Virus record (IMG/VR): IMGVR_UViG_3300048554_000739
Span: 1-20,482 of that record
Reading direction: 5' to 3' (one strand)
Origin: a virus
DNA length: 20,482 nucleotides
Within the stretch, counting starts at the first letter, position 1. Each line of letters begins with the position of its first letter. The translations under genes were made by a program, and so were the position numbers. The notes beneath the pieces were generated by a model that was not told where the DNA came from, searched no databases, and was given only the letters and a program-made list of their open reading frames with translations. Positions 6,192 to 20,152 of the stretch are shown piece after piece.

Positions 6192-6199
6192 TATTTATA
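6192..6199 (-). promoter_or_regulatory. T4-type late promoter for the gp48 baseplate operon
   Basis: Exact match to the T4 late -10 box TATAAATA on the minus strand. With the usual 6-base offset, transcription would begin near 6186, giving a leader of about 30 bases to the gp48 ATG at 6155. The presence of gp33 in this window supports a late sigma/coactivator system. Confidence 0.65.
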
Positions 6200-6640
6200 A
6201 TGCCATATAGAAAAGATTTGCATCAAGGGAAATTTATTCCCAAAAACTCTAAGAAATATGTCGGGGACTCTCGGCAGATAGTGTATAGGTCTGGATATGA
6301 ATTGAAATTTATGAATTGGTGTGACATGAATCCAGATGTCATGTCATGGTCTTCCGAGTCAATCATCATCCCATACAGGTCTCCACTGGACAAAAGAGTA
6401 CACAGATACTATGTTGACTTCTATGTGAACATAAAGGGCAAGTCTTACCTCATAGAAATTAAACCATCTAGGTTTACAAAACCACCAGAACCAAGAAAAA
6501 GAACAAAAAGATATTTAGAAGAGGTGGCGCAATGGGGAGTCAACGAGGCCAAATGGAAATCCGCAAAGGAATATTGTCTTGATCGTGGATGGGAATTTAA
6601 GATAATAACCGAAAAGGAATTGGGAATCTCTTATAAATAG
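6200..6640 (+). CDS. gp4: Head completion nuclease-fold protein, T4 gp4-like
   Basis: 146 aa from the ATG at 6200. I chose this start over an in-frame TTG at 6149 because that start lies inside gp48 and would add a 17-residue hydrophobic stretch absent from the family. A GGA about 10 bases upstream is a weak ribosome binding site. The fold is TnsA/PD-(D/E)XK-like: E34 (SGYELKF), D73 (RYYVDFYV) and E86-x-K88 (YLIEIKPS) form the expected acidic/lysine set. C-terminal WKSAKEYCLDRGWEFKIITEKEL is also typical. In T4, gp4 completes filled heads so that tails can join. The next gene also looks like a head/DNA-end protein, and T4 also places genes 2 and 4 together. Confidence 0.85.
   Translation: MPYRKDLHQGKFIPKNSKKYVGDSRQIVYRSGYELKFMNWCDMNPDVMSWSSESIIIPYRSPLDKRVHRYYVDFYVNIKGKSYLIEIKPSRFTKPPEPRKRTKRYLEEVAQWGVNEAKWKSAKEYCLDRGWEFKIITEKELGISYK
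6632..6639 (+). promoter_or_regulatory. Late-promoter box TATAAATA at the gp4 stop codon
   Basis: Exact TATAAATA overlapping the gp4 stop (TAG 6638-6640). Transcription would start near 6645, right at the ATG (6646) of the next gene, so a transcript from here would be leaderless or nearly so. It may instead serve the tail-tube gene and those beyond. Confidence 0.5.
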
Positions 6641-8741: not shown

Positions 8742-10601
8742 ATGAGACTTTTCGGAAGAAAAAAACGCAATAAGGGTAATGATAACGACAAGAATAGCGG
8801 CGGCGGACTACTTGGCGCTGGTGCGAGAGGTGCCGCTGCCGGAAGCACATTCGCCGGAATACAGGCTCTAGGCAGTTTATTCGGTGGTTCCGATGGAGAC
8901 CCAGCTGCGGCCGGAGCAGGTGGTGGTTTCGGTACATCAAGAGGAATGGGTGCCGGTGGGTCTGGTTCCTCAAATTATACTCCATCAGCAGCTGCAACCA
9001 GTGTTCTTTCGGACGCAGACAGTTCTGATCCTGTAGTAAGACAACTCCAAGATATTGAAAAAGTCCTAGTATCAATAAAAGGCGATACTTCACTCCTAGC
9101 TGCTGGAACGGGTGGGGGTATTGGAAGAGGAAAAAATAATCCTGCCTTACAAGGAATGTATGGTCAACCAAAAAGATCAGACAGTGATCTCAAATCATTT
9201 TTGCCATTGCTTCTTGCTGGAATGTTTGGTTTCTTTAACCAAAACAAGGGGGGTGGCGGACCTGTAGACAAAAATTATGATGGAGTAGATGACTCGTTGC
9301 AAAACCCTATTGAGGTGGCCACCGAACAGGTTGCAGACCCGAAAGTAGTGAGACAAGCGACAAACGCTCCTAGAGCGATAGTCTCGACGGCCGCAGTGGC
9401 AACAGATGTGGCAAGGGGAGCTGTGTCTGCGGGCAAGGGTGTAGTTAGTACCACTGGAACAGTATTGGATGCAGTGAGAGGAGCTTCCACAGCAGCTGAA
9501 GCAACATCGACACTAGGTGATGCGGTCAAGTCGAATAACATTATCGACATGTCTGGCAAGCCAGTCGATATCAACACAATCCCAGAGGCGGTAGATGCGC
9601 CTGCGCCTGACAAAGCGTCAATTCCCGATGTTCCTACTCCTGATGTAGACTCAGATAGCATAAAAGCCAAAGTTGGAAGGGGAATTGGAAAATTCATAGG
9701 AAAAACATTGCCTGGTGCTGGTGACCTGATAGCTGGTGCGATGATGTTCAACAAACTTGGAGAAGGTGATTTTGAAGGCGCATTTTATGAAGGAGCTTCA
9801 ATAGCATCGAGTGCGCTCGGTGCCGCCGGGGCCGTTGCAGCGACAGGCACAGGCGCTGGAGCTGTCGCCGCACCAGCCATCGCGCTCGCGGGTTCAGCGG
9901 GATCAACATACTTCGATTATAAGTCTATTACAAGAGACCTATACAAAGAGATATTTGGACATTTCCCAAAGGACGATCCAAATTACACCCCAGAAAGAGA
10001 ACAAGAAGTGTTGGATGCAGTCGTAGAATACATCAAGAATCTTCCGGCTGATATGATGGGCCCATCAGAACCAGAATTGCAAGTAGAAGCAAGACCAGAA
10101 GTGACCGCTAGAAGTGGCCACATGAAAAGAAATCAACAGAATTCTCAGAGAAATTGGGACAAAAAATACGGTGAGATGTACAACCCAGATGGTAGTATGA
10201 AACCAGAACTTGTTCCCGCAGCTAAGGCAGAGTTTGAATCTCAAGGAGCTGGATTCCCTGCCAGAATACAGAACAGGATTGATCCTCTAATAGAAGACGC
10301 CAAAGCATTGGGTGAAGAATTTAAAGAAGGCGCTGAGAGATTGGCACCAGGCCTCAAGATTAGTTCTGATACGGTAGAAGTCACCACAGAATCAGCTACA
10401 AGGGTAGATCAAGAAAAACAAGCATCAATGATGGGCGCTACTGTTGGAGAAAGTGTTGCGACGAATCAAAAGGTACAAGGTACTGGTGTCTTGGCAAACC
10501 AACCCTCAGTCAATGTGAGTGTCGCTGGAACCAAAACCACTTTCCCGACAGACAGTGCGGCGATGCTGTCGATTATGAGAAATGGTAGTTATGCTGTTTA
10601 A
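8742..10601 (+). CDS. Putative tape-measure / baseplate hub protein (gp29 analogue)
   Basis: 619 aa, close to T4 gp29 in length. The N-terminus is very basic (MRLFGRKKRNKGN), followed by Gly/Ala-rich sequence to about residue 75. A hydrophobic stretch at 152-165 (SFLPLLLAGMFGFF) and a long Ala/Gly hydrophobic region at 351-390 could enter membrane. The middle 200-260 is Ala/Val-rich with helical character, and 265-305 is Pro/Asp-rich. Such composition, with membrane-active segments, is common in tape-measure and hub proteins. Its position directly after gp26 and the chaperone-like ORF supports that role; sequence homology to gp29 is not evident to me. It ends 8 bases from the convergent radical SAM gene. 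Confidence 0.55.
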   Translation: MRLFGRKKRNKGNDNDKNSGGGLLGAGARGAAAGSTFAGIQALGSLFGGSDGDPAAAGAGGGFGTSRGMGAGGSGSSNYTPSAAATSVLSDADSSDPVVRQLQDIEKVLVSIKGDTSLLAAGTGGGIGRGKNNPALQGMYGQPKRSDSDLKSFLPLLLAGMFGFFNQNKGGGGPVDKNYDGVDDSLQNPIEVATEQVADPKVVRQATNAPRAIVSTAAVATDVARGAVSAGKGVVSTTGTVLDAVRGASTAAEATSTLGDAVKSNNIIDMSGKPVDINTIPEAVDAPAPDKASIPDVPTPDVDSDSIKAKVGRGIGKFIGKTLPGAGDLIAGAMMFNKLGEGDFEGAFYEGASIASSALGAAGAVAATGTGAGAVAAPAIALAGSAGSTYFDYKSITRDLYKEIFGHFPKDDPNYTPEREQEVLDAVVEYIKNLPADMMGPSEPELQVEARPEVTARSGHMKRNQQNSQRNWDKKYGEMYNPDGSMKPELVPAAKAEFESQGAGFPARIQNRIDPLIEDAKALGEEFKEGAERLAPGLKISSDTVEVTTESATRVDQEKQASMMGATVGESVATNQKVQGTGVLANQPSVNVSVAGTKTTFPTDSAAMLSIMRNGSYAV

Positions 10602-10609
10602 ACTCGACA

Positions 10610-12112
10610 CTAACCCAATAGTTTCTTAGTGATATACTCATCAACGTGACCCAACACATGTTCAGTCCTTCTTTCCATGTGAACCTCTGTGGCAAAGTCT
10701 GACCACTTTACGCTGGGATCAATAAAGAATTTATCATACATGAATGGGTCGATCAAGTTCTTCGCCTGATACTCACTAAATTCCTCTGCACAGAAACGCA
10801 TAACTTCTTGTAAGTTTGTATGTTCGTTTTTCCAGAACAAATAGTATCCCGTAGACGCAACATAATCATACAATTGTTTGTAATACGGGTTTCTACTCTT
10901 TGACCAATCTATGTTGTCAATCGGAATAATCTCTCGGCGATACCCATAGTCAAACCAGTTTTTGTCAAACTCCGAATTGTGATTCAGTGTTTCTGTATGG
11001 CGTTCCAAATCTTTTATCATCAGAACATTCATGTGATAACTATTCTGGTTCCAGTATTCGGACAACCATCTGCCGGTGTCTCGCAACGTGTCTATCGTCT
11101 CATGCGGCAAACCAGCAATCAGAGATATGTGACCCTTGTAAAACCCCGCACTGCGGAAGTACTCATCAACCTCTAACAATCCCTCTTTGATTCTGCCACT
11201 GTCCATACCTTTGCCGATAGACTTGGCGGACTTGTGATTCATACTCTCAACACCATAGAAGTGTGAGGTGATTCCCATCTTGATTAGATTGTCCCAATCC
11301 CGTTTTCTGGTAGTAATCAGGTCTGCACGAATGTACGCAGTCATCTTCGGTGTGAATGGTAGTTTCTCTATGACACTGGCAAACTTCTCAATCTTCTCAC
11401 TGGAATCGTTAAAGGTTTCATCAAGTACAATGTAGTGTTCCGTACCCCACTTATCATAGTTCTCCAGCATCTCATCGTACACACTTTGAGCCGTGCGAGA
11501 GTAATCGCCCTTGACACCTAGAACGGGGAAACTGCAAAACTTACATTTGAATTTGCAACCACGGGCAAACTCTAACAAAAGAATTTCTCTGGGAGTTATG
11601 TGGTCGGTATCCTTGTATGACACCGTGAGATCATCTAGGGGAAAAGACTTGTAATTGACGTAACAGTTTATCATCCTGTTTGCATGAATGGGTTCTGGTC
11701 CACCCTTGAAGTGGTCGATCAGTGCAAGGATGGCATTCTCACCATACCCATACACATACCAATCCATCTCCAATTCTTTCATCGAATTGTTTTGACTGCC
11801 TGCAACAAGGGGTATGTGTGGATACCGTTCCTTCAACCATTTTACTAATTCAAGAACGGTGGGTGTATTGAGAAAAAACGTAGAACCAAATCCAAAAAAC
11901 AAAAAGTCATCGGTGACTTTCGGTTCAATGTATTTTTTAAGCTGATCTAAACTCCATCTGTGAACATAGTCGAGGACTTCGACATCATATCCCTGTTGAC
12001 GGAGAAATGTAGCAATCTTGTGGCCACCAGAAGACCGTCTGATACTAATCTTTGAGCTATCAAACTCCATGCCCAAGTCTTCAAGTTGCCCACCAAAAAT
12101 AATACTGTGCAT
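10610..12112 (-). CDS. Radical SAM enzyme with B12-binding-like N-terminal domain
   Basis: 500 aa. The 4Fe-4S cluster motif CxxxCxxC is present as C186-KFK-C190-KF-C193 (ARGCKFKCKFCSFP). Residues 1-150 (RSSGGHKIATFLRQQGYDVE, LFFGFGSTFF, PLVAGSQNN, WYVYGYGENAI) resemble the Rossmann-like cobalamin-binding domain of B12-dependent radical SAM proteins, but I see no clear DxHxxG cobalamin ligand. Radical SAM core phrases include YIVLDETFND, TAYIRADLIT, HFYGVESMN and HISLIAGLPHET. The last 100 residues form a distinct C-terminal domain. Substrate unknown. GGTGA four bases before ATG 12112 is a passable ribosome binding site. It is separated from gp32 by a strong terminator and may have its own late promoter inside that hairpin. 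Confidence 0.85.
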   Translation of the reverse strand: MHSIIFGGQLEDLGMEFDSSKISIRRSSGGHKIATFLRQQGYDVEVLDYVHRWSLDQLKKYIEPKVTDDFLFFGFGSTFFLNTPTVLELVKWLKERYPHIPLVAGSQNNSMKELEMDWYVYGYGENAILALIDHFKGGPEPIHANRMINCYVNYKSFPLDDLTVSYKDTDHITPREILLLEFARGCKFKCKFCSFPVLGVKGDYSRTAQSVYDEMLENYDKWGTEHYIVLDETFNDSSEKIEKFASVIEKLPFTPKMTAYIRADLITTRKRDWDNLIKMGITSHFYGVESMNHKSAKSIGKGMDSGRIKEGLLEVDEYFRSAGFYKGHISLIAGLPHETIDTLRDTGRWLSEYWNQNSYHMNVLMIKDLERHTETLNHNSEFDKNWFDYGYRREIIPIDNIDWSKSRNPYYKQLYDYVASTGYYLFWKNEHTNLQEVMRFCAEEFSEYQAKNLIDPFMYDKFFIDPSVKWSDFATEVHMERRTEHVLGHVDEYITKKLLG

Positions 12113-13290: not shown

Positions 13291-13889
13291 TGATGTACTT
13301 CCTTATTTATAACATCTTTCAGAGGGTCGGCTGAGGACTTCAAATTGTCGGACAACCTGACAAATGGTCTATACTTTTTTATACACATGGATGCATCTTC
13401 AAGCAAGATATCATTTGCGTTCATATCGACAAAGTTAAAAATCTTATCTAAGATTGTCATTGTCTCTATACTAATTATATTACCAAAAAAGAGACGAAAA
13501 GTCAAGGGATGTTTGCCATTTATAGAAATGAATGGGTCACCTATATTTTCCTTTTCCATGTCCAGCACGATTCTATCAACATCCTGCTTGAATTGATACT
13601 CTCTTTTGAGTTTTCGATTCTGCCACTCTTCGTATCGTCTAGCGGCATCAACGTCAAACAATCCACCCCACTTCTCACCGGATACAAAGTTTGCAACAAG
13701 AAAATTTATAATCTCTTCCCTGCTATAATCCCGAGCAAGTTTCTTAATAGAGATGAGGTCTTTTCTCTTGCGGAAGGTTTCTTCTTTGACTCGGACTTTG
13801 CCCTTGTACTTTACAATGTCGTAGTTCTTGGTTGTAAAGTGTAGTTTAATTGCTAAATAAAGTCGGTAGACTTCAAAGGGTTCTATCAT
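13287..13889 (-). CDS. gp59: Helicase loader, T4 gp59-like
   Basis: 200 aa (T4 gp59 is 217). The N-terminus EPFEVYRLYLAIKLHFTTKNYDIVKYKG matches the family's VYKLYLMIKQHM...YDVIKYN opening, and later phrases (KRKDLISIKKLA, INFLVANFVSG, LFFGNIISIETMTILDKIFNF) also align in order with T4 gp59. It loads gp41 helicase on gp32-coated DNA at forks. The ATG overlaps the gp33 stop (ATGA), and its own stop overlaps the next start, showing translational coupling. The order gp33-gp59-gp32 is as in T4. Confidence 0.9.
   Translation of the reverse strand: MIEPFEVYRLYLAIKLHFTTKNYDIVKYKGKVRVKEETFRKRKDLISIKKLARDYSREEIINFLVANFVSGEKWGGLFDVDAARRYEEWQNRKLKREYQFKQDVDRIVLDMEKENIGDPFISINGKHPLTFRLFFGNIISIETMTILDKIFNFVDMNANDILLEDASMCIKKYRPFVRLSDNLKSSADPLKDVINKEVHQ
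13304..13311 (-). promoter_or_regulatory. TATAAATA box inside the end of gp59 (doubtful promoter)
   Basis: Exact TATAAATA on the minus strand, 14 bases before the 63-aa ORF. A start 6 bases downstream would remove most of the ORF's ribosome binding site, and the bases encode the VINK of gp59, so coincidence is likely. It is listed because a late start here could yield gp32 mRNA. Confidence 0.25.
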
Positions 13890-14170
13890 ATTGGCAGTTT
13901 ACCAGAATTCTTCTGTTTGAGGAGATTTAGATTCTGAGCCTCTGCGGTGATCTTCTCTTTCAAAGACGGAGTAAGTAGTTTTTTAACACTTTCAATCTCT
14001 ACTTCATTGCGAACACAAAAATCTGTGAGAACATCAATATAATTTTGTCTGAGACTGGCCTTGCGTTCAATGTGTTGAGAAAATTCAACAGCACTAGAAA
14101 ATTGTTGATTAGTTATCATATACTCATCCGTCTGGGTTGGGTCTAATTTGGGTTGGTTCTTTGTTGGCAT
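13886..14170 (-). CDS. gp33: Late transcription coactivator, T4 gp33-like
   Basis: 94 aa (T4 gp33 is 112). The pattern VEFSQHIERKASLRQNYIDV, then LTDFCVRNEVEIESVKKLL, then LKEKITAEAQNLNLLK matches the compact helical core of gp33-type proteins, which bridge RNA polymerase, the late sigma gp55 and the sliding clamp at late promoters. The ATG at 14170 has a strong AAGGAAG ribosome binding site, so I keep it despite a 47-base overlap with the epimerase gene; an internal ATG at 14119 would remove the overlap. It overlaps gp59 by ATGA. Confidence 0.8.
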   Translation of the reverse strand: MPTKNQPKLDPTQTDEYMITNQQFSSAVEFSQHIERKASLRQNYIDVLTDFCVRNEVEIESVKKLLTPSLKEKITAEAQNLNLLKQKNSGKLPI

Positions 14171-15032
14171 GCGATTCTTCCTTATTTAATTTACTTTCTA
14201 AGTAATCTGATTTCCAATCCTTTATATACCGAATCACATCATATTCGCAATCATAATAAGGTGACTCACACATGGTCTTTTCACTTTCGCCTGGTTTATC
14301 AAACTCATGAACCACCGGATGATCGAAAGCTTTAGCAACATCCGAAATACTGACGGGGGTTCCTCTGCCCAAATGGATATCTTGTGGTTTTCTTTTTTGT
14401 TGCAACAACTGAAAAATGCCGTCTACAACATCATACACATGAGTAAAATCTCTTTCTTTCTTTCCACTACCATATATTCTCAGGGGTTTGTCTTCTTCTA
14501 CACACTTCTTGAATGCCCTGACAACTGTACTGTATATACCGTAGTCTGCCTCTCTGGGTCCATATACATTGTAGAAGTATAACATATGATACTTGATATT
14601 GTAAAGGGATCGATACAATTCTAGTATCTCTTCACAAGTAGCCTTACTAAAAGTATATGGATTCGCATCCTTCTTACTAAACTGTGTACTAGAAGAAGCA
14701 GCAAAGAATATGGGGACTCTCAGTTTTCTAGCCCACTCACAAACGGTCAACGTAGTATCTAAATTATTTCTAATTGTATGGTAAGGATTCTTTTGAGACA
14801 TCCTCACTCTGGGTGTCGCAGCCAAATGAAAGATTGCATCATACCTCCCAGCAGGAAAAACATCCGATACATTTTGAGTAAGGTACTGGACATTCTTGTG
14901 GGGGACTTTGTAATGTCCTTTGCTGAGATCATCCACAACCAAAACATTCTGTCCATGTAAAAGGAGAGCCTCGACCAAATGAGACCCAATAAACCCACAT
15001 CCACCAGTTACAATAAAATTGTGTGTTGACAT
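14124..15032 (-). CDS. NAD-dependent nucleotide-sugar epimerase/dehydratase (extended SDR)
   Basis: 302 aa. The Rossmann glycine motif TGGCGFIGSH is at residues 9-18, with the ribose-binding acid in VVDDLSKG. Catalytic Tyr and Lys are Y126 and K130 (PYTFSK), with the serine cluster SSST at 113-116. NVYGPR (155-160) and RDFTHVYDV are also standard for GalE/RmlB-like enzymes. It probably alters a nucleotide sugar in the host's envelope or lipopolysaccharide pathway; the exact substrate cannot be read. The last 20 residues are charged and polar and are encoded over the gp33 start. It directly follows the hydrolase stop (no gap) with no clear ribosome binding site, so translation is probably coupled. 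Confidence 0.9.
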   Translation of the reverse strand: MSTHNFIVTGGCGFIGSHLVEALLLHGQNVLVVDDLSKGHYKVPHKNVQYLTQNVSDVFPAGRYDAIFHLAATPRVRMSQKNPYHTIRNNLDTTLTVCEWARKLRVPIFFAASSSTQFSKKDANPYTFSKATCEEILELYRSLYNIKYHMLYFYNVYGPREADYGIYSTVVRAFKKCVEEDKPLRIYGSGKKERDFTHVYDVVDGIFQLLQQKRKPQDIHLGRGTPVSISDVAKAFDHPVVHEFDKPGESEKTMCESPYYDCEYDVIRYIKDWKSDYLESKLNKEESHANKEPTQIRPNPDG

Positions 15033-15671: not shown

Positions 15672-15884
15672 CTAATCAGAAACGTATGTGTTGATTTCTT
15701 TTGCCATATCAACGATTGTTTTGAATGAGGGGTATTCGGGCAAATTCGTTGGATACTCTGCCCCCTCCACCAACTCATAACGAGCCATCAACTCCGATGT
15801 TTTTGCGTGATACTCATCTACGAGAATTTCTCTTGCCTGTTGAAACATGTCGAACCTGAGTTCGTATGGATTTGATCTAGACAT
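15672..15884 (-). CDS. 70-aa conserved-looking small phage protein
   Basis: 70 aa. It starts MSRSNPYELRFDMFQQAREI, is helical and charged, then ends EYPSFKTIVDMAKEINTYVS. Small proteins of this look (YELR...A..IL...Y near the N-terminus, a Tyr/Pro-rich middle, and a final helix ending in Ile-Asn-x-Tyr-Val) are common in marine T4-like phages, but no function is known to me. AAGGAAAT about 9 bases before ATG 15884 supports expression. It sits between the tmRNA and the cell-wall hydrolase, with a conserved hairpin on each side. Confidence 0.75.
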   Translation of the reverse strand: MSRSNPYELRFDMFQQAREILVDEYHAKTSELMARYELVEGAEYPTNLPEYPSFKTIVDMAKEINTYVSD

Positions 15885-15911: not shown

Positions 15912-15945
15912 TGGGTCCGTTGAATTATAAGGTGGAACCCATACC
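15912..15945 (-). promoter_or_regulatory. Conserved hairpin, copy 1, between tmRNA and the 70-aa gene
   Basis: Minus-strand GGTA then TGGGT (15941-15937) pairing with ACCCA (15916-15912), a one-base bulge, CC/GG, and loop starting ACC and ending CAAC. It lies 27 bases before the ATG at 15884 and just after the tmRNA coding piece. It could be a leader element, a processing or termination signal for the tmRNA, or both. Confidence 0.5.
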
Positions 15946-16065
15946 CCACTAGCCTTAGGCGGCTAGAGCATAAACGTCATCGTTTGCGTTTACTTTAGGT
16001 GGCGCTTTGCCAGTCAATCAGTCTCGGTTTATCCTATGCAATCGCAGTCGAACCTATTCACCCCC
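15946..16065 (-). ncRNA. tmRNA coding piece
   Basis: Starts GGGGGUGAAUAGGUUCGACU, the usual 5' tmRNA end (acceptor strand plus D-loop with GG and UUCGAC). A UGGC-AAAGC-GCCA stem lies upstream of the tag. The stop codon sits in the loop of a CUAGCC/GGCUAG hairpin (15966-15949), a common feature just after tmRNA tags. Confidence 0.85.
15955..15987 (-). CDS. tmRNA proteolysis tag: ANDDVYALAA
   Basis: Codons GCA AAC GAT GAC GTT TAT GCT CTA GCC GCC TAA. The resume codon is taken as GCA by analogy with the E. coli tag ANDENYALAA, with which 8 of 10 residues agree. The ending ALAA is the known ClpX recognition signal in E. coli. It is not an independent gene; it is read only after tmRNA enters a stalled ribosome. 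Confidence 0.85.
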   Translation of the reverse strand, partial: ANDDVYALAA

Positions 16066-16149
16066 ATCAGATGCACACTAGCTCCCGCTTCGTTCCGCCC
16101 TGACCAACGGTCTACGGCTGATCCCGCTAAGGTGGTTCTAATGTGCATT
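16066..16149 (-). ncRNA. Intervening segment of the pre-tmRNA
   Basis: 84 nt between CCA and the coding piece. AUGCACAUUAG at its start pairs with CUAGUGUGCAU near its end (11 bp, one G-U), stacking onto the acceptor stem and closing the permuted loop. An inner GACC-GUU-GGUC hairpin is also seen. It is expected to be removed by processing. Confidence 0.75.
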
Positions 16150-16211
16150 TGGTGGAGGTGGCGGGAATCGCACCCGCGTCCTACAATCTTTCAGTCCACT
16201 TCAACGACCGA
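16150..16211 (-). ncRNA. tmRNA acceptor piece
   Basis: About 62 nt. It starts with a small hairpin (CGGUC/GACUG), continues with the P2 strand GAUUGUAG, then the T-arm (stem GCGGG/CCCGC, 7-base loop UGCGAUU), acceptor strand CACCUCC, discriminator A and an encoded CCA ending at 16150. The T-loop has G where tRNA-like RNAs usually carry the second U (position 55). Confidence 0.85.
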
Positions 16212-16216
16212 TCAAG

Positions 16217-16224
16217 TATTTATA
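16217..16224 (-). promoter_or_regulatory. T4-type late promoter upstream of the tmRNA
   Basis: Exact TATAAATA on the minus strand. It lies in the gap after the exonuclease stop (16234), where no protein is coded, and a start near 16211 would give the expected 5' end of the acceptor piece. Confidence 0.65.
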
Positions 16225-16233
16225 ATAACATAC

Positions 16234-16908
16234 CTAGGCAGCAGATGTCAAGACCTCAGACTCGTATAAATCACGACATTCTAGTAAATAGTCCACATGA
16301 TCGTCCCGTTTTTGTACAAATAACTGGGGTTCATCGTCTTGGACACCGATAATTATGACACTTGTATCGATAGGAATTCCGGTTCTCTCCTCAAACATAA
16401 TTGCATAGGCAGCACACTGTGCAAAGTAGTTTTGGATATACTGTTCTTTCTTTGGTCTGCCGGAGGTTTTGAAGTCTATAATAGAGAGCCTGCCGTCAAA
16501 CTCAGCAATGCAGTCACACTGACCGGCGAGGCGGAGATGTTCACTGTATAGAAACTCTTCAACACAATGGATGTTGTCGATTCTATCAATGAGAGGTTTC
16601 ATTTTATTGAACATGTCAACTTCAACAAAGGATAGTTTGTCGAAAGTCAATTCTTCGTTGTTTACATAATCTTCGCAAACGGAGTGGATTTTTGTACCAC
16701 GAACAGAAGCCTGATTGCTGATTCTGTTTGCTTTTTCTGCACCGACACGTTTACGCCAAGCAACGATGCCTGGTTTACTCTTGTGTCCAAGAACGGTGGT
16801 GACAGAGGGAAATCTGACACCACCATCCGTCTTGTACATTCTCTTGCCTTCGTAGTTTTCCCTAATGAGTTTGGGGAGACTGTAAGACTTTTCTACATGA
16901 TGAAACAT
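16234..16908 (-). CDS. PD-(D/E)XK (RecB/Cas4-like) exonuclease
   Basis: 224 aa from ATG 16908. An in-frame TTG at 16932 would add 8 residues; neither has a clear ribosome binding site, but a TATAAGTA box at 16944-16951 would give a 30-base leader to 16908. The nuclease core, numbered from this ATG, is H75 (RGTKIHSVCE), D132 (LAGQCDCIAEFD), D145-F-K147 (LSIIDFKTSG) and the helix QNYFAQCAAYAIMF with the conserved Q and Y of RecB-type nucleases. FPSVTTVLGHKSKPGIVAWR near residue 33 also fits phage exonucleases of this family. Likely role: DNA end processing in recombination or host DNA breakdown. It lies 51 bases after PhoH, upstream of the tmRNA. Confidence 0.85.
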   Translation of the reverse strand: MFHHVEKSYSLPKLIRENYEGKRMYKTDGGVRFPSVTTVLGHKSKPGIVAWRKRVGAEKANRISNQASVRGTKIHSVCEDYVNNEELTFDKLSFVEVDMFNKMKPLIDRIDNIHCVEEFLYSEHLRLAGQCDCIAEFDGRLSIIDFKTSGRPKKEQYIQNYFAQCAAYAIMFEERTGIPIDTSVIIIGVQDDEPQLFVQKRDDHVDYLLECRDLYESEVLTSAA

Positions 16909-16959
16909 AAAACAATACCGTATAACTTTCAACTATCATACTATACTTATAACCAAATG

Positions 16960-17768: not shown

Positions 17769-18401
17769 CTATTTGTTTTCCCATCCACGTTCCTTTGTTA
17801 TATATTCAAAAAACTCATAATCGTCTCTATAAGTGTTTTTGACAATAGTCTCATCGACCTCTTTTATAATGTTGATTGGCCCCACATTTTCTTTGATTTC
17901 GCCGTATCTAGGGGGCGTTATCTTGTATTTATTCCAAAGATATGCTTGTACGTCCAAAACAACGTCATTTTCTTTCGACATCCAAAAGAATGTATATCTT
18001 TCTGGATATTCCACATAGAATCTGCGTTGGACTTCGATATTTTGCGGCAGAAAATGAACATCAACGTCAGATTTAAAAATGCTTTCATTGTGGTTGAAGT
18101 GATTTGGAATGTACCACGGAAACATTACTTCGGGTGTAATATCGGGACGGTATTTGGATCGGGAATCTCCTGTCCAATTGGATATATCCATATACCGATT
18201 TATGGCTGAAAGAAACCTTTCGTATGGGTCTCTAAACACTACAATCACTTCTTGCGCCTTATTCTGTTTAAATAATTCCACAGTATCTAAATGTGGCCAA
18301 GACTTAAAATTGTGTCTAAAACTTGTAGAAGCATTTTTTGGAATTTCTACTACTGCAAGTTTTTGTTTCTCATTCCACCAATACATCTCAGAATTCTGCA
18401 T
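17769..18401 (-). CDS. Sulfotransferase family protein
   Basis: 210 aa. IPKNASTSFR at 20-29 is the 5'-phosphosulfate (PAPS) binding loop, and VFRDPYERFLSAINRY at 55-70 is the 3'-phosphate binding segment; both are standard for carbohydrate sulfotransferases. It lacks a transmembrane segment, so it would act in the cytoplasm. The acceptor is unknown; sugar or lipid head groups are likely by family. Its start overlaps the 100-aa gene by 14 bases with no ribosome binding site visible, so translation is probably coupled. With the epimerase and carbamoyltransferase it suggests glycan modification. Confidence 0.85.
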   Translation of the reverse strand: MQNSEMYWWNEKQKLAVVEIPKNASTSFRHNFKSWPHLDTVELFKQNKAQEVIVVFRDPYERFLSAINRYMDISNWTGDSRSKYRPDITPEVMFPWYIPNHFNHNESIFKSDVDVHFLPQNIEVQRRFYVEYPERYTFFWMSKENDVVLDVQAYLWNKYKITPPRYGEIKENVGPINIIKEVDETIVKNTYRDDYEFFEYITKERGWENK

Positions 18402-18727: not shown

Positions 18728-20152
18728 TTATTTGAATACTTTGACATTATACTTTTTTTCAAACCTATTTGCATCATTTATATCATTTACAATAGGTTCG
18801 CCTTTGATATTAAGGCTTGTATTCAACAACATAGGACAACCAGTTTTGTGTTTCCAGTGAGTAAGTACCTCGTATAGACCGCTGTGTTGTCTCTGATTGA
18901 CCGTTTGGACTCTGCTGGTGCCATCTTTGTGTACTATGGCGGGATATTTCTCTGGGTCTTTGCATGTAACTATTTCTTGCATATATGGTGAAGAAAATCC
19001 ACGACTTACATTAAAACACTTGTGTGCATCCTCTTCCCTGATAACAGGTGCAAATGGTCTAAACTCTTGCCTCTTTTTGATCGCGTTGACCTTTGACTTC
19101 ATGAATTCGCCGCGAGGATCAGCAAGAAGACTCCGATTCCCCAAAGCACGAGGACCAAACTCAGCGCAACCGTTTGCAACTCCGACAATTCCATTTCTAT
19201 CAAGTTCCCCCAGAATTTCTTCACTTGGATATTCTCCCTCTATCTTATGTCCAAGGTAAGGTGTCTCAAACTCCACCCTTTGTTCTGTCCCCGCTAGAAC
19301 AGCACCCAGAGATGATCCCGCATCGCCTGGGTTTGGCATGATCCAATAATCATCAAAGAAAACTGGGATCAACCTGTTTGCAAGACAGTTTAATGCACAT
19401 CCTCCCATGAAAACCAATTTTTTTCTTTTGGTAAGGTTTCCTGCAAAGTACAACAGTGAAGCCAGTTCAGATTCATACATATGTTGTACTGATGCTGCAA
19501 CGTCAAAGTAGTCCTCCTCCTTGAGTTCTGGTTTCCACCACTTAACTCCGCGATGAAACTCTGTCTTATCGTCCACAAGTTTCATCAAGTCTTCCTTGAA
19601 TCGATGTTTGTCTCCATATGCAGCCATGCCCATAAGAATATATTCATCCTCATTGGCCTTCAATCCAATCCTATCAGTAAATGCAGAATAAAACAACCCC
19701 AAAGAGTTGGGATACCTCTTGGACCAAACCATAGTCTCATCACGCCATATAGACGTTGTTATCCACTCACCGATTGCATCGATAACAAGAGTGGCACAAT
19801 CCTCAAATGGTCTGGTGTAATATCCAGCAGCCATATGACTGCGATGGTGGTTCCCCCACTTCATCTTGCGAGGTTTATATCCGTGGTCGATGAGATATTT
19901 CTTTGGATTGGTCCAGATATTTTTTTGACCAGAGTAGATTCTTCTGGTTGCTTTTAGGAGTGGGTTCTCATACCAGTATACGACATCTGGTTCCCCATGT
20001 GACAAAGCATCCTCAATCAAAAACCCATTGAGATGTTTGTCGTTTTTGTATCTGGAGTATCTTTCTGCATGTCCTGCAAAAACTATCTGTCCATCTTTTA
20101 CAACAGATAGAGATGCATCATGATACCCAGCACTGACTCCCCAATTAATCAT
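18728..20152 (-). CDS. NodU/TobZ-type O-carbamoyltransferase
   Basis: 474 aa, shorter than TobZ. The N-terminal Kae1-like ATPase domain is clear: GVSAGYHDASLSVVKDGQIV at 5-24, HAERYSRYKND, metal-binding HHRSH at 102-106, LVIDAIGEW near 122-130, and later FMGGCALNCLANR. The C-terminal YrdC-like part carries the signature GCAEFGPRALGNRSLLADPR and ends with HKTGCPMLLNTSLNIKGEPI. Such enzymes use carbamoyl phosphate and ATP to add a carbamoyl group to a sugar or other hydroxyl. The ATG at 20152 lies in the stop of the 40-aa ORF (ATGATTAA overlap) without its own ribosome binding site, so it depends on that ORF for translation. The target (host glycan, phage DNA or other) is unknown. Confidence 0.9.
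   Translation of the reverse strand: MINWGVSAGYHDASLSVVKDGQIVFAGHAERYSRYKNDKHLNGFLIEDALSHGEPDVVYWYENPLLKATRRIYSGQKNIWTNPKKYLIDHGYKPRKMKWGNHHRSHMAAGYYTRPFEDCATLVIDAIGEWITTSIWRDETMVWSKRYPNSLGLFYSAFTDRIGLKANEDEYILMGMAAYGDKHRFKEDLMKLVDDKTEFHRGVKWWKPELKEEDYFDVAASVQHMYESELASLLYFAGNLTKRKKLVFMGGCALNCLANRLIPVFFDDYWIMPNPGDAGSSLGAVLAGTEQRVEFETPYLGHKIEGEYPSEEILGELDRNGIVGVANGCAEFGPRALGNRSLLADPRGEFMKSKVNAIKKRQEFRPFAPVIREEDAHKCFNVSRGFSSPYMQEIVTCKDPEKYPAIVHKDGTSRVQTVNQRQHSGLYEVLTHWKHKTGCPMLLNTSLNIKGEPIVNDINDANRFEKKYNVKVFK

Follow-up and report, generated by a model that had tools for sequence, protein, structure and literature searches.

A complete two-piece tmRNA gene adjoining a predicted late promoter in a T4-like marine phage

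Organization of the locus

The window, that is, the whole stretch of DNA that was analyzed (20,482 bp, an entire virus record), carries T4-type genes for baseplate, tail tube, DNA end protector, head closure, gp32, gp59, gp33, exonuclease, and PhoH. A complete circularly permuted (two-piece) tmRNA gene occupies positions 15912-16224 on the minus strand. The features of this gene and of its surroundings are as follows:

16234..16932, minus strand: T4-like phage exonuclease gene (phrog_298), the 5' neighbor of the tmRNA gene, in relatives too
16217..16224, minus strand: T4-type late promoter -10 element TATAAATA (motif), 75 nt before the CCA end; RNA start predicted at about 16211
16150..16211, minus strand: acceptor piece of about 62 nt, consisting of P2 strand, T-arm, acceptor 3' strand, and A73-CCA (sequence, RF04321, and ARAGORN)
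16181..16188, minus strand: P2 inner helix, acceptor-piece strand GAUUGUAG, pairing with 16040-16047 (96.9% of cells paired in 8 relatives)
16161-16177, minus strand: T-arm of the acceptor piece
16154-16160, minus strand: acceptor 3' strand
16150-16153, minus strand: A73-CCA
16066..16149, minus strand: intervening segment of 84 nt, predicted to be no part of the mature RNA (fold and comparison with relatives)
15912..16065, minus strand: coding piece, consisting of acceptor 5' strand, D-arm, P2 strand, resume region, tag, stop hairpin, and pseudoknot
16059-16065, minus strand: acceptor 5' strand in the coding piece
16040-16047, minus strand: P2 strand in the coding piece
15955..15987, minus strand: tag frame GCA..UAA, encoding ANDDVYALAA* (ARAGORN; frame maintained in relatives)
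15949..15966, minus strand: stop-codon hairpin (sequence and relatives' alignment)
15913..15948, minus strand: H-type pseudoknot 3' of the tag, UGG/CCA plus GGGUU/GACCC (double change from U-A to C-G in relatives)
15672..15884, minus strand: 70-aa ORF downstream of the tmRNA gene, no known family
13886..14170, minus strand: homolog of the late transcription coactivator gp33 (phrog_254)

From 5' to 3', the acceptor piece with its CCA is followed by the intervening segment and the coding piece, and the acceptor stem pairs across the two pieces: CACCUCC (16160-16154) and GGGGGUG (16065-16059) form 7/7 pairs, including G3-U70. The AlaRS identity features G3-U70 and A73 are both present, and the CCA is encoded, with ACCA ending at 16150. 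The pieces are also joined by the P2 inner helix (GAUUGUAG/CUGCGAUU, 8 pairs), to which an outer helix (UCGGUC/GACUGA) is added; the whole P2 exceeds what the covariance model displays. The stop of the tag sits in a hairpin loop (CUAGCC-GCCUAA-GGCUAG), and an H-type pseudoknot comes next. When the coding piece was folded alone, its MFE was no better than that of shuffles (z -0.43), which is no surprise for a pseudoknotted RNA that the other piece holds in place and speaks neither for nor against the assignment.

The RF04321 (tmRNA_permuted) covariance model matched 16209-15955 on the minus strand over its full length (106 bits against a cut-off of 47, E 3.7e-20), alpha_tmRNA (RF01849) passed marginally (51.7 bits against a cut-off of 50), and ARAGORN independently called a permuted tmRNA (tmRNA*) with the tag ANDDVYALAA*. 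An initial annotation, which named no strand, had claimed a phage-borne permuted tmRNA with an acceptor piece (T-arm and encoded CCA), an intervening segment, and a coding piece, together with the seven acceptor pairs, G3:U70, A73, a P2-like helix between the pieces, and a tag with its stop in a hairpin loop. All of these elements were seen in the sequence, the helix proved real, the proposed ends (CCA end at 16150 and G1 at 16065) were right, and the covariance-model search suggested there gave the strong match above. The observation and the identification as an intact, phage-borne two-piece tmRNA gene are confirmed.

The gp32 protein is 53%, 53%, and 52% identical to those of the isolated marine T4-like phages HTVC008M, P-SSM2, and Mosig, respectively, and 57% identical to that of Melnitz over a shorter stretch. 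A cyanophage origin was considered and set aside: gp32 is about equally close (~53%) to SAR11 phage and cyanophage proteins, and no psbA-type photosystem gene was found in 8 related contigs. Among the other genes of the window are a radical SAM protein between the structural genes and gp32 (10610-12112, minus strand), whose B12-binding match is weak and which falls into no PHROG family, and a 619-aa ORF adjoining the baseplate hub gene (8742-10601, plus strand), which has no PHROG family and a sub-threshold Pfam match. A possible sulfotransferase (under the Pfam cut-off), a Nol-like carbamoyltransferase, and a nucleotide-sugar epimerase are encoded near the tmRNA (17769-18401, 18728-20152, and 14124-15032, respectively, all on the minus strand).

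Relatives, tag, and lineage

A search of IMG/VR with the exonuclease yielded 40 loci. In the 8 closest loci (exonuclease identity 91-100%), a permuted tmRNA with the same tag lies directly after the gene (8/8), and one of these tmRNAs is identical in sequence to that of the window; these close relatives come from different metagenomes, with at least 8 contigs having the gene at the same site. No tmRNA was present within the sequence examined in the loci of intermediate identity (L010-L021) and in three more-distant ones. In most of the more-distant loci (37-42%), a tmRNA follows a few hundred bases after the gene, and its tag usually differs. The exonuclease search plus two pattern scans gave 134 distinct environmental phage copies. 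Moreover, permuted tmRNA-like genes with CCA and D-arm in L404 (2501-2713, recognized by eye) and L405 (1792-2004) were missed by ARAGORN, and more such genes probably escape this program.

Two-piece ssrA genes in phages, including isolated T4-like marine ones, have already been published, and the gene of the window joins them. Among 133 distinct phage tmRNA structures, 53 were two-piece, with 50 from marine or aquatic samples (PMC9004378), and a tmRNA database holds 79 unique bacteriophage sequences (PMC11915505). Methylophilales (OM43) phage Melnitz (PMC9004378; MZ577096), a T4-like member of Kyanoviridae, also has a permuted ssrA between a PDDEXK exonuclease and gp33, with TATAAATA 77 nt before the CCA end. 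It differs in its tag (ANDNYVPVDYALAA), its intervening segment of 142 nt, two small ORFs between its exonuclease and tmRNA, and a reported glutamine riboswitch (PMC9004378), whereas no riboswitch in the window reached the Rfam cut-off. The cultured Pelagibacter (SAR11) phage Mosig EXVC030M (MT647606) likewise carries a permuted ssrA between exonuclease and gp33, but its tag is GEDNFALAA, its intervening segment is 44 nt long, its upstream stretch contains no exact TATAAATA, and it falls outside the tree clade of the window. A two-piece tmRNA in a T4-like neighborhood is present, as initially annotated, but calling it unusual needs qualification, given the publication of Melnitz and Mosig and at least 120 IMG/VR stretches matching one permuted-tmRNA pattern. 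Alphaproteobacterial two-piece tmRNA (RF01849; Caulobacter ssrA) shares the piece order, the stop in a hairpin, and the terminal pseudoknot, but bacterial tags are mostly ANDN..., and the bacterial genes lack TATAAATA upstream. The one-piece tmRNA of Lysobacterales has the identical tag ANDDVYALAA, but it is not permuted and belongs to another RNA lineage.

Among 84,980 bacterial and archaeal species, 109 stretches encode exactly ANDDVYALAA; 89 of them gave a one-piece tmRNA call with ARAGORN, and none gave a permuted call. These one-piece genes are mostly gammaproteobacterial and include those of Lysobacterales, Methylococcus, and Thiotrichaceae. In IMG/VR, 38 of the 43 stretches with this tag are permuted and none is one-piece. 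A bacterial donor sought by the exact tag was rejected, since only one-piece genes were returned. In a FastTree tree of the mature pieces, which is rough and has weak deep supports, the window belongs to a clade whose 117 members all come from phages, with no bacterial sequence among them, and a nucleotide search against isolated phages gave a match confined to the T-arm/acceptor stretch. Because no permuted bacterial match was found and the clade is phage-only, we conclude that none of the sampled bacteria was a recent source of the gene and that the permuted form is apparently passed down within phages.

These data also bear on the possibility that the host has a one-piece tmRNA and that the phage tag was fitted to host protease adaptors while the RNA form stayed that of the phage lineage. 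The occurrence of the tag in one-piece tmRNAs of Lysobacterales and other gammaproteobacteria is consistent with this proposal, as is the [YF]ALAA ending: among phage copies collected irrespective of their tag, 54 of 84 tags end in this way, versus 3 of 60 bacterial permuted tags. The tag match may nevertheless be convergence, and we regard the proposal as unlikely. It concerns the origin of the tag and is compatible with the phage-selected, late-made tmRNA that we favor below.

A late promoter motif at a fixed distance

The late promoter of marine T4-like phages is NATAAATA/TATAAATA (PMC2984593). In the window, the motif TATAAATA lies 9 nt past the end of the exonuclease gene (16234) and adjoins the acceptor piece. 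The motif is found upstream of 35 of the 134 phage copies (mean 2.2 and largest 6 in 50 shuffles) and upstream of 0 of 47 bacterial copies. In 33 of the 35 (33/134), the distance from the start of the motif to the CCA end downstream is 73-80 nt. A start 6 nt past the motif gives a predicted acceptor RNA of 60-64 nt in seven examples, the first bases of which form the outer P2. The outermost two pairs of P2 are lost in some relatives, and these pairs lie upstream of the predicted RNA start. Thus, judged by sequence motif, the gene has the marks of a T4-type late gene, namely TATAAATA at a constant distance and gp33 in the genome, and the gp33 homolog supports the predicted use of the promoter. 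Read-through from upstream genes could also produce the tmRNA. There are 4 exact TATAAATA motifs in the window versus 0.87 expected, the others being at 6192-6199 (minus strand), 6632-6639 (plus strand), and 13304-13311 (minus strand), each a short way upstream of a same-strand ORF.

The ALAA ending of a tag is a signal for proteases (ClpXP), and the tag of the window ends in this way. This ending fits the proposal made for Melnitz, in which a tmRNA made early tags host proteins for amino-acid recycling, and the Melnitz ssrA lies directly downstream of a predicted early (sigma-70) promoter (PMC9004378). On the other hand, TATAAATA adjoins the acceptor piece here and likewise in Melnitz (-77), the total being 33 of the 134 copies. 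In Melnitz, the motif falls inside the ARAGORN gene call, and we infer that the removal of non-intergenic promoters in that paper may have hidden it. Furthermore, tmRNA targets stalled ribosomes rather than selected host proteins. The promoter placement argues for late expression and against the early expression proposed for Melnitz, and a late product would be better suited to rescuing ribosomes while virions are made than to tagging host proteins early on; early recycling thus seems improbable to us. A search among open-licence papers found no published mention of late-promoter placement at phage tmRNA. What is new here is the predicted late promoter abutting a two-piece tmRNA, in this phage and in many relatives.

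Selection on the structure and the tag frame

The joined mature pieces of the 8 close copies, including the window, were aligned, and 98.2% of the cells are paired under the proposed structure. Double changes are seen at four positions of the structure: two T-stem pairs, acceptor pair 6-67, and one pair of the pseudoknot. In the control, in which the partner was slid by 1-3 columns, about 50% or less were paired and no double changes occurred. All three stop codons (UAA, UGA, and UAG) occur among close relatives, in which the tag frame is nonetheless maintained. In all 134 phage copies, the 7/7 acceptor pairing, G3-U70, and A73-CCA are invariant across 18 different acceptor-stem sequences; this conservation is partly ascertained, since at least 6/7 pairs were required and the parser and ARAGORN favor good pairing and AA-ending tags.

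A search for SmpB (PF01668) in 13 long phage contigs that carry permuted tmRNA, one of them a 165-kb relative, found none, a result limited by the incompleteness of the contigs; the same search was positive in 10 of 14 control genomes. Host SmpB is therefore the likely partner. The lack of a phage SmpB would also suit a decoy, which would bind SmpB and thereby block trans-translation by the host. Such a role has been proposed for the tmRNA of mycobacteriophage DS6A, which has no tag, and RNA of the DS6A type has been reported to inhibit tmRNA (PMC4131195, PMC11915505). However, a decoy needs no tag frame, stop hairpin, or pseudoknot, all three of which are maintained, and here the frame holds while the stop codon varies and G3-U70 is invariant, so that we consider a decoy very improbable. 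The compensatory changes and the maintained tag frame point to selection for full trans-translation and not for SmpB titration. By integrating at ssrA, prophages can come to carry fragments of this gene (PMC9004378), but a recently captured host fragment, a decaying passenger (the decayed host fragment foreseen in the initial annotation), or an assembly artefact is hardly tenable here, as both pieces are complete, related phages retain the pairing through compensatory changes, the gene occupies the same site in contigs of different metagenomes, the rough tree places the window among phage sequences only, and no cellular permuted tmRNA among 84,980 species has its tag.

The intervening segment

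The ends of the segment pair in an 11-bp stem (16138-16148 with 16071-16081), and the segment folds with an MFE of -32.3 kcal/mol (z -3.25). The mature pieces of the close relatives are about 90-97% alike. Part by part, the T-arm/acceptor, the upstream strand, and the coding piece share 86-100% identity between the window and these relatives, whereas the segment is 12-84 nt long and 11-52% identical. An unconserved segment between stable mature parts is the expected appearance of one that would be excised.

The median length of the segment is 30 nt in bacteria versus 75 nt in phages. The segment of the window was examined as a gene and rejected: it contains a 39-codon ATG frame, in which no ribosome-binding site was seen and which is not conserved in L003 and L006. 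In several relatives, judging from their codon patterns and reading frames, the segment is predicted to be protein-coding. Between L175 and L195, 17 sites differ in 25 codons, of which 13 are third positions and 2 change the amino acid, and this frame recurs inside permuted tmRNA genes of further phages (L398-L403); the L195 frame has a weak match in isolated phages, at the tmRNA of Stenotrophomonas phages. In L164, L173, L184, and L193, the segment encodes a zinc-ribbon-like peptide, a homolog of which is free-standing, with no tmRNA call, in L412-L416. ATG frames with a ribosome-binding-site-like sequence are present in the segments of L186 and L407. No isolated phage gave a match to the segment peptides of L164 or L186. 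In addition, L196 is a recombinant whose T-arm, acceptor, and segment resemble L190 (97-100%) and whose flanks and coding piece resemble L169 (94-97%); the acceptor and intervening segment seem to move as a cassette.

A broader and tentative view, to which we give somewhat less than even odds, is that phage two-piece tmRNAs form their own lineage, separate from that of bacteria, that in T4-like phages they would be late genes in which the acceptor piece begins at its own gp55/gp33 promoter, and that the removable segment may double as a slot for small protein genes.

Proposed role in infection

The best overall explanation of these sequence comparisons, with a probability of roughly 0.72, is a selected phage tmRNA that would be made late and top up ribosome rescue with host partners. 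The initial annotation had suggested ribosome rescue or a redirection of tagging as possible roles. Transcription would start about 6 nt past TATAAATA, where the acceptor piece begins or close to that point, and the intervening hairpin would keep the precursor together. Host RNase P would cut before G1, and host tRNA 3' processing would release the CCA end. The RNA would then be charged by host AlaRS via G3-U70 and brought by host SmpB and EF-Tu to ribosomes that have stalled because their mRNA is broken or lacks a stop codon. Such a ribosome would resume at GCA, append (A)ANDDVYALAA, stop, and be recycled, and the tagged fragment would go to ClpXP-type proteases. Such a late-made RNA may supplement rescue when virion proteins are being made from decaying messages and the cell is perhaps not renewing its own ssrA RNA.

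The wide distribution of these genes across environmental phages suggests a frequent demand for ribosome rescue when aquatic bacteria undergo lytic infection. The fixed placement of the putative late promoter, seen in 33 distinct copies including cultured Melnitz, offers a new clue to when and why phage tmRNA is used. It makes testable whether this RNA is a late product that frees ribosomes in virion synthesis or an early tool for the degradation of host proteins.
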